Source: Pseudanabaena sp. (GTDB lineage: Bacteria > Cyanobacteriota > Cyanobacteriia > Pseudanabaenales > Pseudanabaenaceae). From it: 64,000 nt of DNA. The stretch's first letter is position 1, and each line of letters begins with the position of its first letter. Shown piece after piece: positions 33,205 to 39,732 of the stretch. Below the pieces are notes generated by a model. The model was not told the DNA's origin. It worked only from the letters and a program-made list of their open reading frames with translations, and did not search any database. The translations under genes were made by a program, and so were the position numbers. Where the stretch lies: contig QBMK01000001.1 of assembly GCA_003249035.1 (NCBI GenBank), forward strand, positions 1 to 64,000. Reading direction: 5' to 3'.

Positions 33205-34131
33205 GTGAGTAACTCAATAACAGCGATGACTGAAATTTATCTGCCTGAAAAAGTAGCATCTCGGCGTAGATCAGAAAATCGCATTTTGCGTCCTTTCCTA
33301 AAGTGGGCTGGTGGAAAGAGGCAGCTTCTTCCAATATTGCGCAAATACATTCCTAAAAACTTTAGTTCTACAACATACTTTGAACCTTTTGTAGGAGCTG
33401 GTGCTTTTCTTTTCGACTTACAACCTAAAAAAGCATTTATTAATGATGCAAACAAGGAGCTAATTAACTGTTATCAGACAATCAAAGACAAGCCCAATGA
33501 ACTTTTAGAATTGACTAGGGAATATCAAAAAAACATCTCAAGAGAACGTTATTACCAATTGCGTGAATTAGATCGAAAATCAGACTTTAATGAACTTTCC
33601 GATGTACAAAGAGCGGCTAGAATTATTTATTTAAATAAAACCTGTTTTAATGGGTTATTTCGCGTCAACAGTCAAGGTCAATTTAATGTGCCTTATGGAG
33701 ATAATAAAAACCCAATAGTTGCTGATGAAGTTGTTATTGGTGCGATAAGCAAATATTTGAACGAAAATAATATTCAAATTACAAACAAAGATTTTCAAGA
33801 ATCAGTTTCTAATGCTAAAAAAGGTAGTTTTATATATTTCGATCCACCATATGATCCTGTCTCTGATTCATCATCCTTTACAGGTTACGATCTAAGTGGA
33901 TTTGGCAAGGATGAACAACGCCGTCTACAGGATGTATGTGATAGTTTAGTAAAGCGTGGTTGTAAAGTATTGCTTAGTAACTCTGCAACAGATTTTATTA
34001 AGGAGCTTTATAGCAATGAAGAATATTATTCAATAATTGAAGTTGCAGCAACTCGAAGCATTAATGCTGTAGGAACATCAAGGGGAAAAATTAATGAGGT
34101 ACTAATTTTTAGTAAATATGATGTCAAATAA
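33205..34131 (+). CDS. Dam-family DNA adenine methyltransferase (restriction-modification)
   Basis: A 308-residue alpha-class N6-adenine methyltransferase. Motif X/I: FLKWAGGKRQLL (31-42) and FVGAGAF (62-68). Family segment YLNKTCFNGLFRVNSQGQF. Catalytic motif DPPYDP (213-218). Dam-family enzymes modify GATC or, as in EcoRV, GATATC; the site cannot be decided here. GTG start at 33205, or ATG at 33226. It overlaps the next gene by 14 nt, and neither gene contains the GCGATCGC octamer common elsewhere, which suggests transfer. Confidence 0.9.
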   Translation: MSNSITAMTEIYLPEKVASRRRSENRILRPFLKWAGGKRQLLPILRKYIPKNFSSTTYFEPFVGAGAFLFDLQPKKAFINDANKELINCYQTIKDKPNELLELTREYQKNISRERYYQLRELDRKSDFNELSDVQRAARIIYLNKTCFNGLFRVNSQGQFNVPYGDNKNPIVADEVVIGAISKYLNENNIQITNKDFQESVSNAKKGSFIYFDPPYDPVSDSSSFTGYDLSGFGKDEQRRLQDVCDSLVKRGCKVLLSNSATDFIKELYSNEEYYSIIEVAATRSINAVGTSRGKINEVLIFSKYDVK

Positions 34132-35422
34132 TTCAGACAAATCAAAAAATGATATTGCTTGGGAAATTTTATTCGAGACACATCATATTCTAGATGAAAT
34201 CAATAAAAATGGGGTATATAAAATCTCCGCACAAGTGATAAATGAAGAGCGTGAAGCGAGGTTAATGACGAAATTTGATCATCTTATTCAGCTACCCAAG
34301 ATTTTCACTCAAAATCATCTAACCATTCAGCCTGATTCACGAGGAACTTATGTTATTGGACAGTTTCAAAGCTATGAAAAGATTCCTAATAACTCATCCA
34401 TAAAGATCCAAGAATTTGCTTTTCCTGAGTATATTGAAACTCTTAATCCAACAAATATATATTCAGAAGCTGCTTCTATTCTCTGTGCCTTTAATAGTGG
34501 AATTATAAGTGACCTTCTTGGACAGGAAGTTTCGTTTACTGTTTTAGGAAGAATGTCAACAGGGAAGTTTAGCTATTTTATAAACAACTCTCAACAAAAT
34601 ACTGACTGTGAAATTAACGTAGAGAATTCGCAATGTGAAATTGACGCAGGTTTTGAAGGAGGTGATATTTTTGCAATTGTAGAGGCAAAACTTCAAGATG
34701 TAGAGGATTTCTTAATTCGTCAGCTTTATTATCCATATAGACTTTGGCGTAGCAAAACCACAAAAAAAGTTATTCCAATTTTTCTTTCCTATTCTAATGA
34801 CATATTTTCTTTTCATGTATATAGATTTAAAAATGATAATAACTATAATTCAATTGAATTAGTAGAACAAAAAAGGTATCAGATAGGCTCAAATGTTATT
34901 GAGTTAGAGGACATTACCGATATACTTGCAAACATTAAAATCACATCTGACCCAACTGGAATACCATTCCCTCAAGCTAATGTTTTTAATAGAGTTGTAG
35001 ATCTACTTATGCAAGTTCATGGCGTTAGTCCCACAATATCAAAAGAGGAGATAACTATTAACTACGCTTTTAATATCAGGCAAGCTGGATATTATGCTGA
35101 TGCAGCTAGATACCTTGGTCTTTTAAAGAAAAGTCGTGATAAAGAGCAAGGGGTATTCTATTCGATGACAGAAAAAGGTCATATTATCATGGCAAAAACT
35201 CCTAGGAATAGGAATCTAGCTTTAGCTAAATGCATTCTCGAGAAAAAAATTTTTAACAACACTTTAGAAACTTATCTAAATGAAGGAGGAAAACTAAATC
35301 GGCATCTAATTTGCGAAATAATGACAAATGAAAAACTTGGGCTTAATGAAACAACTATTGAACGGCGATTATCGACTGTTTTTGGTTGGATAAACTGGAT
35401 AATGGAACTTACTCAGAGATAA
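34118..35422 (+). CDS. Type II restriction endonuclease (partner of the Dam-family methyltransferase)
   Basis: A 434-residue protein. A PD-(D/E)XK-like active site is visible as IDAGFEGGDIFAIVEAKLQD, with Asp183, Glu189 and Lys191. The C-terminal region (about 330-434) reads like a DNA-binding winged-helix domain, with NIRQAGYYADAARYLGLL, and ends FGWINWIMELTQR. The coding sequence is AT-rich. The start ATGATG overlaps the methyltransferase stop, so expression is coupled. Recognition sequence is unknown; partner identity is inferred from position and motif. Confidence 0.8.
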   Translation: MMSNNSDKSKNDIAWEILFETHHILDEINKNGVYKISAQVINEEREARLMTKFDHLIQLPKIFTQNHLTIQPDSRGTYVIGQFQSYEKIPNNSSIKIQEFAFPEYIETLNPTNIYSEAASILCAFNSGIISDLLGQEVSFTVLGRMSTGKFSYFINNSQQNTDCEINVENSQCEIDAGFEGGDIFAIVEAKLQDVEDFLIRQLYYPYRLWRSKTTKKVIPIFLSYSNDIFSFHVYRFKNDNNYNSIELVEQKRYQIGSNVIELEDITDILANIKITSDPTGIPFPQANVFNRVVDLLMQVHGVSPTISKEEITINYAFNIRQAGYYADAARYLGLLKKSRDKEQGVFYSMTEKGHIIMAKTPRNRNLALAKCILEKKIFNNTLETYLNEGGKLNRHLICEIMTNEKLGLNETTIERRLSTVFGWINWIMELTQR

Positions 35423-36321: not shown

Positions 36322-36699
36322 ATGATTGTTACTACTGAATCGTCGCTACAGTCTCGATGAATATCTTGCGATCGCTGAAACAGCCGTAGAAAAATGAGAA
36401 TACCATGATGGAGGAATTATTGCGATAACTGGCGGAACTCTGAACCACAGTGTGAAAGTACTTTCTCCATCAACTGAAGAATACGATCGCACCGATAAGT
36501 TTCGGATGTATCGTTCTATTCCTAGGTCTTGGGAATATCTATTAGTTTCGTCAAAACAAAGTTTTTGTGGAGCGCTATAGCAAGCAGGGATAGGATTGGA
36601 TGTATTGTGATTTTGATCGTTTAGACCAGTCTGTTTTTGCTGGAGTCAATGCATATGGACTTAGCGATCGCCGAGATTTATAGCAATATTGTTTTTTAA
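36322..36699 (+). pseudogene. Decayed Uma2-family endonuclease gene
   Basis: Pieces of a Uma2 (DUF820) protein occur in order but in different frames: MIVTTESS at 36322; RRYSLDEYLAIAETAVEK, a stop, then EYHDGGIIAITGGTLNHS from 36341; directly joined to KVLSPSTEEYDRTDKFRMYR and SIPRSWEYLLV; then FVERYSKQG, a stop, DWMYCDFDRLDQSVF; and finally AIAEIYSNIVF with a stop at 36699. There are at least three frame changes, two in-frame stops and an internal deletion of the central catalytic part, so it is not functional. Confidence 0.8.
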
Positions 36700-37057
36700 T
36701 CTAAAAATATAGACTTTGCGTCTACGAATTATTTTTTCTGTGTGTTTTATGATTTTCTAATGAGATTAGAATATTTTATAGGATGTATTCTGAGATGTAA
36801 TAAATCTTAGATAACGATAGTAAATTCGAGATTGGCTTAGTTAAATGACTAAATTGCTCATTTTAGATGTATTTTCAAATTAGACATTAAGACTTATCAA
36901 AATATTTAGAGTATTAACTTTTTCTGTAGAATTAACTAGAAAGGCTACAGCTTTAGAAGTTTTTTTAATGATCGCGATGATTGCACTAGCAATCGTCATT
37001 ACCAATTAAAAGTTTTTGAGCATATCTTGAATATAAAATTTTTGAGGAAAGTAAAGC
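36700..37057. other. AT-rich region upstream of the repeat protein gene
   Basis: About 360 nt, very AT-rich, with no HIP1 octamer and no recognisable gene. It presumably carries the promoter of the gene at 37058. Confidence 0.4.
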
Positions 37058-37624
37058 ATGAGTACTAGTAACGAAAGCACTAAGCCAGAAAGCACCAAGC
37101 CAGAAGAAAAATCCTCTCGCCCAACTAAAGCCAAATCTGACAGTGAAACGACTGCAAAAACAGGTACAGTGGATATCTCAGCTTTGGCGGTGAAGGAAGA
37201 ATCTAAACCCGTCGCAGCATCAATCGAACAAAAAGGTTCATTAATTGTGACTGAAACCCTTAAGCATTATGGCGATCGCCCCATTGTTGATGGCGGCTTT
37301 CGTGCAGTTGAATATTTCAACAGTTCAGGCGAGCGTCCAATCGAAGCTAGCAAGTTAGCAATTAGCAGCACCTACACCACTATGGGTGGAGATCGTCCGA
37401 TTGTCAGTGGCGGTGTGCATGTAGTTGGCACATTTTTCGATGCTGGCGAACGTCCTATTGTTGAAGATGGATTTGTAATTGTTGAGAAGTTTTTTGCGGC
37501 AGGTGAACGTCCTGTGGGTTCAGCTGGATTGGTGATTAACGAAACTTACTCCCAAATGGGTGAGACCAGACCTGTTGCATCCAATGCGATCGACAATGCA
37601 GGACTAATGGGTTACATCGACTAA
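37058..37624 (+). CDS. Uncharacterised protein with six RP-centred repeats
   Basis: A 188-residue protein. Residues 1-60 are disordered and rich in S, T, K and E. From about 61 the chain is built of units of 19-20 residues, each turning on G(D/E)RPI: positions 74, 93, 113, 132, 151 and 171, with the form GERPIVxxGFxVVExFxxx. No membrane segment, signal peptide or cysteine is present. I do not know this family. The regular hydrophobic pattern between turns suggests stacked beta strands. A terminator follows at 37635. Confidence 0.7.
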   Translation: MSTSNESTKPESTKPEEKSSRPTKAKSDSETTAKTGTVDISALAVKEESKPVAASIEQKGSLIVTETLKHYGDRPIVDGGFRAVEYFNSSGERPIEASKLAISSTYTTMGGDRPIVSGGVHVVGTFFDAGERPIVEDGFVIVEKFFAAGERPVGSAGLVINETYSQMGETRPVASNAIDNAGLMGYID

Positions 37625-37634
37625 TCGGTGTAGG

Positions 37635-37673
37635 CTTCAAAAAGCAGCATCCATCGGGTGCTGCTTTTTGAAG
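37635..37673 (+). terminator. Terminator after the repeat protein gene
   Basis: CTTCAAAAAGCAGCA pairs with TGCTGCTTTTTGAAG (15 bp) around TCCATCGGG, starting 11 nt after the stop. The T5 tract is inside the stem's 3' arm. Confidence 0.75.
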
Positions 37674-37736
37674 TCTTTAGACTAGTTAAGGGTATAAATT
37701 CAAAGTGGTGCGATTTTTGCGACTTTTAAGATTCTG

Positions 37737-38426
37737 ATGGATACAAAACTAACTACGTTAAAAGATAAGTTGTTTTCTGGTAAAGAGGCAAACCAATTAC
37801 CAGCGATCGCTGAATTAGCCACTTTGGGAGAGGATGGATTACAAGTACTAGATGAATTTATTCAAGCTCGTAAAGCCGCAAATACTGATGTGACATGGAT
37901 CGATGGTAAAATTCATCAAACTTTATTGCAAAACGATCTGCCAAGAGCGATCGAATTAGCCCAAATTCATTACCCTAATGGTGTCGTCACCTTAAAATCA
38001 GAAAAGGCGATCGATTATCAACAAATTCAAATTTTGCTAGCGAAACAAGACTTTGAAGAAGCGGATCGTGTTACCAGCAAAAAACTATGTGAGGCGGCTG
38101 GTACAGCTGCTTTGACGCGAGGCTGGCTATACTTTACAGACGCAAAGTCAATTCCCATAAGTGATTTACAAACGATTAATCAGCTTTGGCTAGTGTATTC
38201 CGAGGGTAAGTTTGGATTTTCAGTGCAACGAAAAATTTGGCTCAATCTTGGTAAAGGGTGGGAAAAATTTTGGTTGAAAATTGGCTGGAAAAAAGATGGA
38301 TCTTTTACCCGCTATCCTAATGAGTTTATTTGGAGTCTTGATGCTCCGAGAGGGCATTTACCTCTTTCCAACCAATTACGCGGCAATAAAACTATGCAGG
38401 CAATTTTTTCACATCCTGCTTGGTGA
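37737..38426 (+). CDS. gun4: GUN4 porphyrin-binding regulator
   Basis: A 229-residue Gun4, the porphyrin-binding activator of magnesium chelatase in chlorophyll synthesis. The N-terminal helical domain (about 1-85) is followed by the GUN4 core: AIDYQQIQILLAKQDFEEAD, GWLYFTDAKSIPISDLQTIN, QLWLVYSEGKFGFSVQRKIW and the FTRYPNEFIWSLDAPRGHLP loop. It is the full two-domain form, as in Synechocystis Gun4. Confidence 0.93.
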   Translation: MDTKLTTLKDKLFSGKEANQLPAIAELATLGEDGLQVLDEFIQARKAANTDVTWIDGKIHQTLLQNDLPRAIELAQIHYPNGVVTLKSEKAIDYQQIQILLAKQDFEEADRVTSKKLCEAAGTAALTRGWLYFTDAKSIPISDLQTINQLWLVYSEGKFGFSVQRKIWLNLGKGWEKFWLKIGWKKDGSFTRYPNEFIWSLDAPRGHLPLSNQLRGNKTMQAIFSHPAW

Positions 38427-38516: not shown

Positions 38517-38726
38517 TCAGTGCTTGAGGATATGCTCAATTAATCTGGTCAATCGTGATTCTATTTCGCGCCGATCTCTACCCGCCAAACCTTCTAACTC
38601 CTCAATTAGGTTTTCTACATCTAGATTCTTAAAATCACCAACTTTTAACTTCGCGATCGCCTCTTCTAACCACAAATTAAGATCGCGATCGTACAGCGTA
38701 GATTTTTGCTCGATAGTTTGTGTCAT
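38517..38726 (-). pseudogene. Truncated DUF29 gene copy
   Basis: Encodes 69 residues matching the N-terminal half of the two DUF29 genes beside it (MTQTIEQKSTLYDRDLNLWL to RLIEHILK), then stops where the others continue CYVNLPECYRGWE. The sequence beyond (38457-38516) has a different reading frame giving EVVELYQNLEPKTKRPLTSA, which looks like the tail of another gene. A deletion has therefore joined two genes here. Confidence 0.7.
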
Positions 38727-38732
38727 AAGTTT

Positions 38733-39191
38733 CTAAACACTTGTCCAAAGATTTAAATTTAAAACTTTCTTATCATCTCGGCTAAATTGCCATACATTAG
38801 GAAAAGTAGTATCAGAATATTCTAGCTTTACGAGTTTGAGTGCAGTGTCAAAAGCACGGTCAAAAACCTGTGAGAAATGACCTTTGAGACTGGGAGACTG
38901 TTCTAATAATGTAGTTAATTCAGCCCGTTGGTTAACGATTGTAATTTCCCAACCTCGATAACATTCAGGTAGGTTGACATAGCAACGCTTGAGGATATGT
39001 TCAATCAATCTAGTCAAACGTGACTCTAATTCGCGCCGATCTCTACCCGCCAACCCTTCTAACTCCTCAATTAAGTTTTCGACATCTAGATTTTGAAAAT
39101 CACCTGCTTTTAACTTAGCGATCGCCTCTTCTAACCACAAATTAAGATCGCGATCATATAGGGTTGTTTTTTGATCAATAGTCTGAGTCAT
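38733..39191 (-). CDS. DUF29 family protein
   Basis: A 152-residue DUF29 protein. The N-terminus TLYDRDLNLWLEEAIAKLK is followed by DVENLIEELEGLAGRDRREL, RLIEHILKRCYVNLPECYRGWE and a divergent C-terminal half ending LNLWTSV. The function of DUF29 is unknown; it is common in cyanobacteria and often multicopy. It is the middle of three tandem copies. Confidence 0.85.
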   Translation of the reverse strand: MTQTIDQKTTLYDRDLNLWLEEAIAKLKAGDFQNLDVENLIEELEGLAGRDRRELESRLTRLIEHILKRCYVNLPECYRGWEITIVNQRAELTTLLEQSPSLKGHFSQVFDRAFDTALKLVKLEYSDTTFPNVWQFSRDDKKVLNLNLWTSV

Positions 39192-39226
39192 AGGTTTAGG
39201 CGATGCAATACATCATCCATCAAGGT

Positions 39227-39685
39227 TTAAGATTTTTTCCAAAAATTAGCGGTTAATAACAAGTCAATCTCATAGGTAAATTGCCATGTTTTAGGAAAAA
39301 TCGTATTTTCATATTCTGTTTGTACGATTTCTAGTGCGTCATTAAACAATTCGTCAAATACTGAGATTATGTGACTTTTTAGGCTAGGAGACTGTTTGAC
39401 GATTTTTTTAATCTCGTTCCTTTGTCCGATGATTGTTAACTCCCAACCTCGATAACATTCAGGTAAGTTGACGTAGCAACGCTTGAGGATATGTTCAATT
39501 AATCTAGTCAAACGTGACTCTAATTCGCGCCGATCTCTACCCGCCAAACCCTCTAACTCCTCAATTAAGTTTTCTACATCTAGATTTTGAAAATCACCTA
39601 CTTTTAATTTCGCGATCGCCTCTTGTAACCACAAATTAAGATCGCGATCGTATAGCGTAGATTTTTGCTCAATAGTCTGGGGCAT
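39227..39685 (-). CDS. DUF29 family protein
   Basis: A 152-residue DUF29 protein, near-identical to its neighbour over the first roughly 95 residues and different in the last 55 (ending LTANFWKKS). The ATG at 39685 gives an N-terminus aligned with the other copy. The conserved first half and diverged second half suggest recent conversion or duplication confined to the 5' part. Confidence 0.85.
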   Translation of the reverse strand: MPQTIEQKSTLYDRDLNLWLQEAIAKLKVGDFQNLDVENLIEELEGLAGRDRRELESRLTRLIEHILKRCYVNLPECYRGWELTIIGQRNEIKKIVKQSPSLKSHIISVFDELFNDALEIVQTEYENTIFPKTWQFTYEIDLLLTANFWKKS

Positions 39686-39732
39686 AGGTTTAGGCAATGC
39701 GATACAGCATTTATCAAGTATATCGCAAAGAA

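Follow-up and report, generated by a model that had tools for sequence, protein, structure and literature searches.

The window analysed here, a stretch of 64,000 nucleotides of Pseudanabaena sp. DNA, carries a gene for a protein built from six G-x-RP-[IV] units. To judge from the database searches, this GxRPI protein belongs to an undescribed family that most cyanobacteria outside the marine pico-lineage appear to have. We propose, with a probability of about 40%, that it acts as a soluble multivalent adaptor or scaffold in the photosynthetic carbon assimilation of cyanobacteria with beta-carboxysomes. The spread of the gene, its decay, its place in the genome and, if slr0476 of Synechocystis is the orthologue, its regulation lend moderate support to a link with photosynthesis and carbon fixation.

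Gene and repeat architecture

The open reading frame starts with ATG and runs for 188 codons, encoding 188 amino acids (Table 1); no reading frame of similar extent was found on the opposite strand of 37058–37624. The gene is real and subject to purifying selection, with dN/dS values of 0.08–0.12 in six of seven pairs within the genus and no computable dS in the seventh. The lead, residues 1–62, is rich in Lys, Glu, Ser, Thr and Pro and precedes the six units and a short tail. Arg-Pro pairs occur at residue 21, within the lead, and at residues 74, 93, 113, 132, 151 and 171, the six units being spaced by 19, 20, 19, 19 and 20 residues.

An initial annotation of this DNA had recognized six GxRPI units at these same positions behind a disordered lead; the units are confirmed, and the lead is probably disordered. 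When residues 63–188 were compared with themselves the strongest offset was 58 and the second 19, and the observed maximum was matched in none of 2000 shuffles, so the repeat is not a product of chance. The lead is of low complexity and its residues 1–60 have pLDDT values below 50 in both AlphaFold2 models. The offset of 58 indicates that units 1–3 and 4–6 are two copies of one three-unit block. This doubled 58-residue block and the conserved C-terminus, where the family signature reads G-x-RP[VI]ASN-x-ID...LMG[FY][IL]D-COOH, are additions to the initial annotation.

Table 1. Features of the GxRPI gene and its surroundings (positions in the window)
Feature	Position	Strand	Basis
Upstream block kept in most of the genus, possible hairpin	36890–37003	+	Upstream DNA alignment of genus members; hairpin by eye
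GAGGA ribosome-binding site	37044–37048	+	Sequence; kept within the genus
GxRPI-family gene	37058–37624	+	Reading frame and translation; dN/dS
Low-complexity, probably disordered lead, residues 1–62	37058–37243	+	Sequence; low pLDDT in residues 1–60
Six G-x-RP-[IV] units, 19–20 residues each, doubled three-unit block (58 residues)	37271–37585	+	Self-similarity
Best-kept part, C-terminal RPVASN-x-ID...LMGYID-COOH	37568–37621	+	Family alignment
Intrinsic-terminator hairpin	37632–37676	+	Folding compared with shuffles
GUN4 (activator of chlorophyll synthesis), downstream neighbour	37737–38426	+	PF05419 (E 4e-62); PF16416

The gene had also been credited with a long upstream region of its own and a strong terminator, and on these grounds with likely expression. 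The region is indeed long, but it is not regulatory throughout, since fragments of a Uma2-like gene occupy 36341–36696. This broken gene lies on the forward strand in pieces distributed over three frames with stops, and the pieces share 65–82% identity with a copy that is intact at the equivalent place in locus L060. The block at about 36890–37003 is probably the promoter and 5' UTR. It contains an inverted repeat (GATGATTGC/GCAATCGTC, forward strand) with CTGTAG/CTACAG arms, which may be a structure of the 5' UTR or the site of a regulator. The terminator is real: the stretch 37615–37690 folds at -38.3 kcal/mol (z = -8.2), with none of 200 shuffles equally good; a consensus terminator scan missed the hairpin. 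GUN4 lies behind this terminator, and a transcript shared with the GxRPI gene is thus not clear.

Elsewhere in the window, 33205–35422 on the forward strand encodes a D12-class adenine methyltransferase followed by an overlapping DUF6996/DUF6997/DUF7226 protein, a gene pair that looks like a restriction–modification pair. Three tandem DUF29-like genes, the first of them shortened, occupy 38517–39697 on the reverse strand.

An undescribed family

The initial annotation assigned the repeat to no known family, and the Pfam, NCBIfam and solved-structure searches are in agreement. With the window protein (E up to 10) no Pfam profile passed its cut-off, the best E being 0.27, and with 47 family members (E up to 0.1) nothing recurred, nine families each matching weakly in one or two members. 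Pentapeptide and hexapeptide repeat profiles of Pfam matched neither the window protein nor the 47 members. A Pfam match to GREB1 was rejected as far under the cut-off, as was the sole NCBIfam match of the window protein, to the AIDA-I autotransporter, at 17.1 bits against a cut-off of 1200. No match was found among the sequences of solved structures in the PDB, Rfam gave nothing usable, and phage records and viral contigs yielded no relative.

The profile search that had been suggested returned no described domain and plentiful homologues, so neither outcome named beforehand as contradicting the initial annotation arose: an 11-row profile matched 125 of 386 genomes of the phylum and a 47-row profile 279 of 388 genomes of the class. 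A single copy was found in the source genome, and 50 of 58 relatives have matches. The closest named matches, mostly from Pseudanabaena, are 75–93% identical across the whole protein or the greater part of it. A pattern scan of 84,980 species gave 107 fitting stretches, 44 of which encode relatives, all 44 named records being cyanobacterial; the patterns were biased towards Pseudanabaena, so distant relatives may exist elsewhere.

Fifty representatives were compared, with R and P present by definition in the unit count. Six units are found in 24 of them, five in 18, four in six and seven in one, and the single representative with three is a fragment at a contig end. The spacing between units is 19 residues in 163 of 218 cases and 20 in 42. 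The 47-row alignment has RP invariant at four units, and hydrophobic residues occupy unit positions 3, 8, 10 and 14. At the C-terminus all 50 representatives have a final Asp and Phe or Tyr at -3, and 49 have the preceding Met-Gly. A second, short member with an LMGYLD tail was noted in an S. elongatus-like genome (G045; L135:5713–6120), between genes for probable membrane proteins.

Plasmids of Nostoc and Calothrix (L123–L128) carry a divergent branch whose units read IDGQRPI. These proteins, hypothetical wherever annotation exists, resemble the GxRPI family in having RPI units of equal length and, in five of six, a C-terminal [DGS]Y[IMV]D, but they differ from it in the acidic IDG before RP and in lacking the ASN-x-ID...LMG motif. 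One short IDGQRPI protein, on p057_G, is encoded between genes for ArsR-type regulators, as is a chromosomal relative in locus L140.

Predicted fold

The stacked beta fold that the initial annotation envisaged is present in one prediction and gone from another. AlphaFold2 with 11 sequences (model A1) built a solenoid with three strands per unit, at a mean pLDDT of 56.3 and a pTM of 0.49, pLDDT reaching about 70–79 in units 2–5. With 47 sequences, in which the repeats are poorly aligned, the solenoid was lost (pTM 0.19). AlphaFold2 is prone to building solenoids from repeats. The hydrophobic unit positions would suit a solenoid with three inward faces, the alternative being a disordered multivalent chain. 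VIA-align placed model A1 on right-handed beta-helices, with a Z of 12.6 for tapirin and 10.8 for bactofilin, both at an rmsd of 2.3; rows with an rmsd near 12, probably left-handed helices and thus of the opposite hand, were left uncounted. The match to the bactofilin filament subunit covers all 101 residues of the chain. Foldseek returned no match below E 0.69.

Gene neighbourhoods

Of 51 neighbourhoods compared, 21, from the genus Pseudanabaena and near relatives, have GUN4 following on the strand of the GxRPI gene. In 14 of the 51, drawn from at least four families, and in further loci examined, uvrB lies divergently upstream. In the Synechocystis-like locus L130 the GxRPI gene and uvrB are divergently oriented, with purN and a ycf46-like gene downstream of the former (names given by eye), and the family signature and C-terminal tail are present in Synechocystis-like loci.

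In most genomes the gene is outside carboxysome operons. A search for RbcL and Ccm proteins in 86 loci of at least 6 kb found rbcL in two, which belong to two unrelated families. In G432, which we take to be S. elongatus PCC 6301 and whose locus was deliberately extended towards rbcL on the basis of the gene numbering, rbcL is 7.4 kb from the GxRPI gene, with ccmO and ccmM farther out. In G152 the distance is 2.7 kb, and rpiA is adjacent, tail-to-tail. The proximity to rbcL emerged after several targets had been tried, so the level expected by chance is only roughly small.

The slr0476 link and RbcR

Gene order makes slr0476 of Synechocystis sp. PCC 6803 the probable orthologue. We take purN of this strain to be slr0477, and the GxRPI gene would then be slr0476; a literature search for slr0477 found no paper naming it. 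Slr0476, an 'unknown protein', shares with the GxRPI gene of Synechocystis-like genomes its position between uvrB and purN, a likeness of gene order. The uvrB gene of PCC 6803 is given as sll0459 (PMC5101192). Slr0442, a first guess from its place near uvrB, was discarded, being described as the minor pilin PilX2 (PMC12313861). Synpcc7942_1435 is called a 2-OG decarboxylase (PMC4973221), which fits the menD gene beside the S. elongatus copy, and that copy would be Synpcc7942_1434.

A list of the RbcR regulon places slr0476 alongside rbcLXS, ccmK2K1LMN, sbtAB and ndhC-K-J, and reports a log2 value of -1.02 for it in the sll0528 mutant (PMC12014562). Its transcripts are reported to fall upon iron deprivation (PMC3516471) and its protein has been detected by proteomics (PMC4057619; PMC3479031), which bears indirectly on the expression that the initial annotation thought likely. 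The literature found to name slr0476 gives expression data alone, with no function among them. Through slr0476 the GxRPI gene would belong to the RbcR regulon. Direct control is unsupported: the motif ATTA(G/A)-N5-(C/T)TAAT, as given in PMC13249358, is not enriched in the 94 regions upstream of GxRPI genes, two of which contain it exactly, 20 with one mismatch, 61 with two and 11 with more. The window has it with one mismatch 293 bases upstream, as good as in 33% of shuffles, and the upstream regions of its GxRPI gene and of its own rbcL have no 10-base word in common.

Absence with CsoS2 and loss with RuBisCO

Among the 388 class genomes CsoS2_M (PF12288) matched 101, all of family f2 and of 1.5–3.7 Mb, which we take for marine and related picocyanobacteria with alpha-carboxysomes. 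None of the 388 has both CsoS2 and the GxRPI gene. All 101 fall in one family or clade, so the contrast amounts to one evolutionary event, of a type that would be common to many genes.

Neither gene was found in eight of the 388 genomes. Two of these, G027 and G098, are direct non-matches, and the place of the other six on the list (G202, G224, G527, G537, G541 and G557) was deduced; a recheck for GxRPI found no match in G202, G527, G537, G541 and G557 and a marginal one (0.00127) in G224. RuBisCO, shell and PSI genes are present, and no GxRPI copy was detected, in six genomes: G027, G202, G527, G537, G541 and G557, the assemblies of G202 and G557 being fragmented.

Thirty-seven genomes were searched for RuBisCO; many were picked for a reason, so they form no random sample. 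With G098 excluded, six of them have lost it. Its genes have stops in G190, G224 and G308, are reduced to a fragment with a stop in G632 and are missing from G603 and G604. Of these, G190 and G224 also have stops in the GxRPI gene, and the copy of G308 has lost the C-terminal signature and has the arginines of two units replaced, so that three copies are broken; in G632, G603 and G604 no copy was detected. Beside the broken copies uvrB and a gene of 984 aa are open, and PSI genes have been lost along with the decay of the GxRPI gene. We interpret G190, G224, G308 and G632 as spheroid bodies of diatoms, and G603 and G604 as UCYN-A. G098 had first looked like another independent loss of both genes but was dropped, since its sequence is given as N in part and a copy could be masked, and G032 and G034, incomplete at 74% and 85%, were left out of the count.

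In the endosymbiont of E. turgida rbcL and rbcS are described as pseudogenes, and that of R. gibberula is given about 3.02 Mbp (PMC5638926). The diatom endosymbionts and the UCYN-A groups are treated as separate acquisitions in PMC12903740, and by its table 1, as summed here, the Rhopalodian group has lost 507 of 1779 core proteins. Gene loss is thus cheap in the diatom endosymbionts and its base rate high, so the evidence from RuBisCO loss is moderate. The diatom endosymbionts have lost photosynthesis as well as RuBisCO, and carbon fixation and the light reactions are therefore indistinguishable there.

Possible functions

We infer an adaptor mechanism from two features, the repeated invariant Arg-Pro and the invariant free C-terminus. 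With its flexible lead and its four to six units, the protein would present a row of identical Arg-Pro faces. As the partner bound by these faces we envisage something repetitive or multi-subunit, such as RuBisCO, a component of the carboxysome or a photosynthetic complex, and the C-terminal [FY][IL]D-COOH tail would dock at one end. The GxRPI protein, presumably cytoplasmic, would thereby serve as a multivalent adaptor or scaffold.

A role in carbon assimilation has to be set against the points noted above: the f2 absence counts once, loss is cheap in the diatom endosymbionts (507 of 1779 core proteins; PMC12903740), no copy was detected in six genomes that have RuBisCO, shell and PSI genes, neither RbcR motif enrichment nor a 10-base word common with rbcL was found upstream, and slr0476 is a probable orthologue by gene order, no paper naming slr0477 having been found. 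The decay of the gene along with PSI genes in G190, G224 and G308 and the position of GUN4 as the next gene in the Pseudanabaena genus would suit a factor maintaining the photosystems, chlorophyll or thylakoids and having no part in carbon fixation. We regard such a factor as rather unlikely. The gene went undetected in G603 and G604, read as UCYN-A, which presumably keeps PSI; a terminator separates it from GUN4, which is not its neighbour in other families. The reported drop of slr0476 transcripts under iron deprivation (PMC3516471) would favour a maintenance factor, but the genes in the RbcR list are those of carbon assimilation (PMC12014562). The recurrence of divergent uvrB across families raises the idea of a DNA-repair or stress partner of uvrB. 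This is very improbable, as uvrB is open where the GxRPI gene is broken, GUN4 and not uvrB adjoins the gene in Pseudanabaena, and divergent ancestral neighbours need have no common function.

The predicted fold suggests a bactofilin-like cytoskeletal or scaffolding protein, its six coils of about 19 residues forming a right-handed triangular beta-helix that polymerizes end to end, with the lead as a tether. The lead and six coils recall what we take to be the bactofilin layout, and the three strands per unit of model A1, its Z scores and the spacing of hydrophobic positions all fit. The helix predicted in model A1 would resemble bactofilin (6rib) in its type and in its size behind a disordered lead. 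Nevertheless, this likeness was not reproduced with 47 sequences, the Foldseek result and the tendency of AlphaFold2 towards solenoids count against it, and the number of units varies from four to seven. The bactofilin profile of Pfam matched neither the window protein (E up to 10) nor the 47 members (E up to 0.1), and the GxRPI protein stands apart through its ladder of invariant RP and its [FY][IL]D C-terminus. We consider a bactofilin-like protein possible, if on the unlikely side; the adaptor proposed above might itself have this structure.

A bolder version of the adaptor proposal, which we think doubtful, is that the protein is a near-universal missing part of the beta-cyanobacterial CO2-concentrating machinery. 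It would be a multivalent linker under the control of RbcR, its units attaching to RuBisCO or to a component of the carboxysome or the thylakoid, in the role that the CsoS2-type repeats have in alpha-carboxysomes. CsoS2, the alpha-carboxysome scaffold, has repeated conserved motifs for which multivalent binding is described (PMC13249358), and its spread is complementary to that of the GxRPI gene. Unlike CsoS2, the GxRPI protein is far shorter and is encoded mostly outside carboxysome operons, and CsoS2_M did not match the window protein (E up to 10).

The GxRPI gene is kept in most beta-cyanobacteria, is broken or missing in those sampled genomes from which RuBisCO has been lost and is apparently co-regulated with RuBisCO and carboxysome genes. 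If the link is true, the GxRPI protein would be a new player in biological CO2 fixation.
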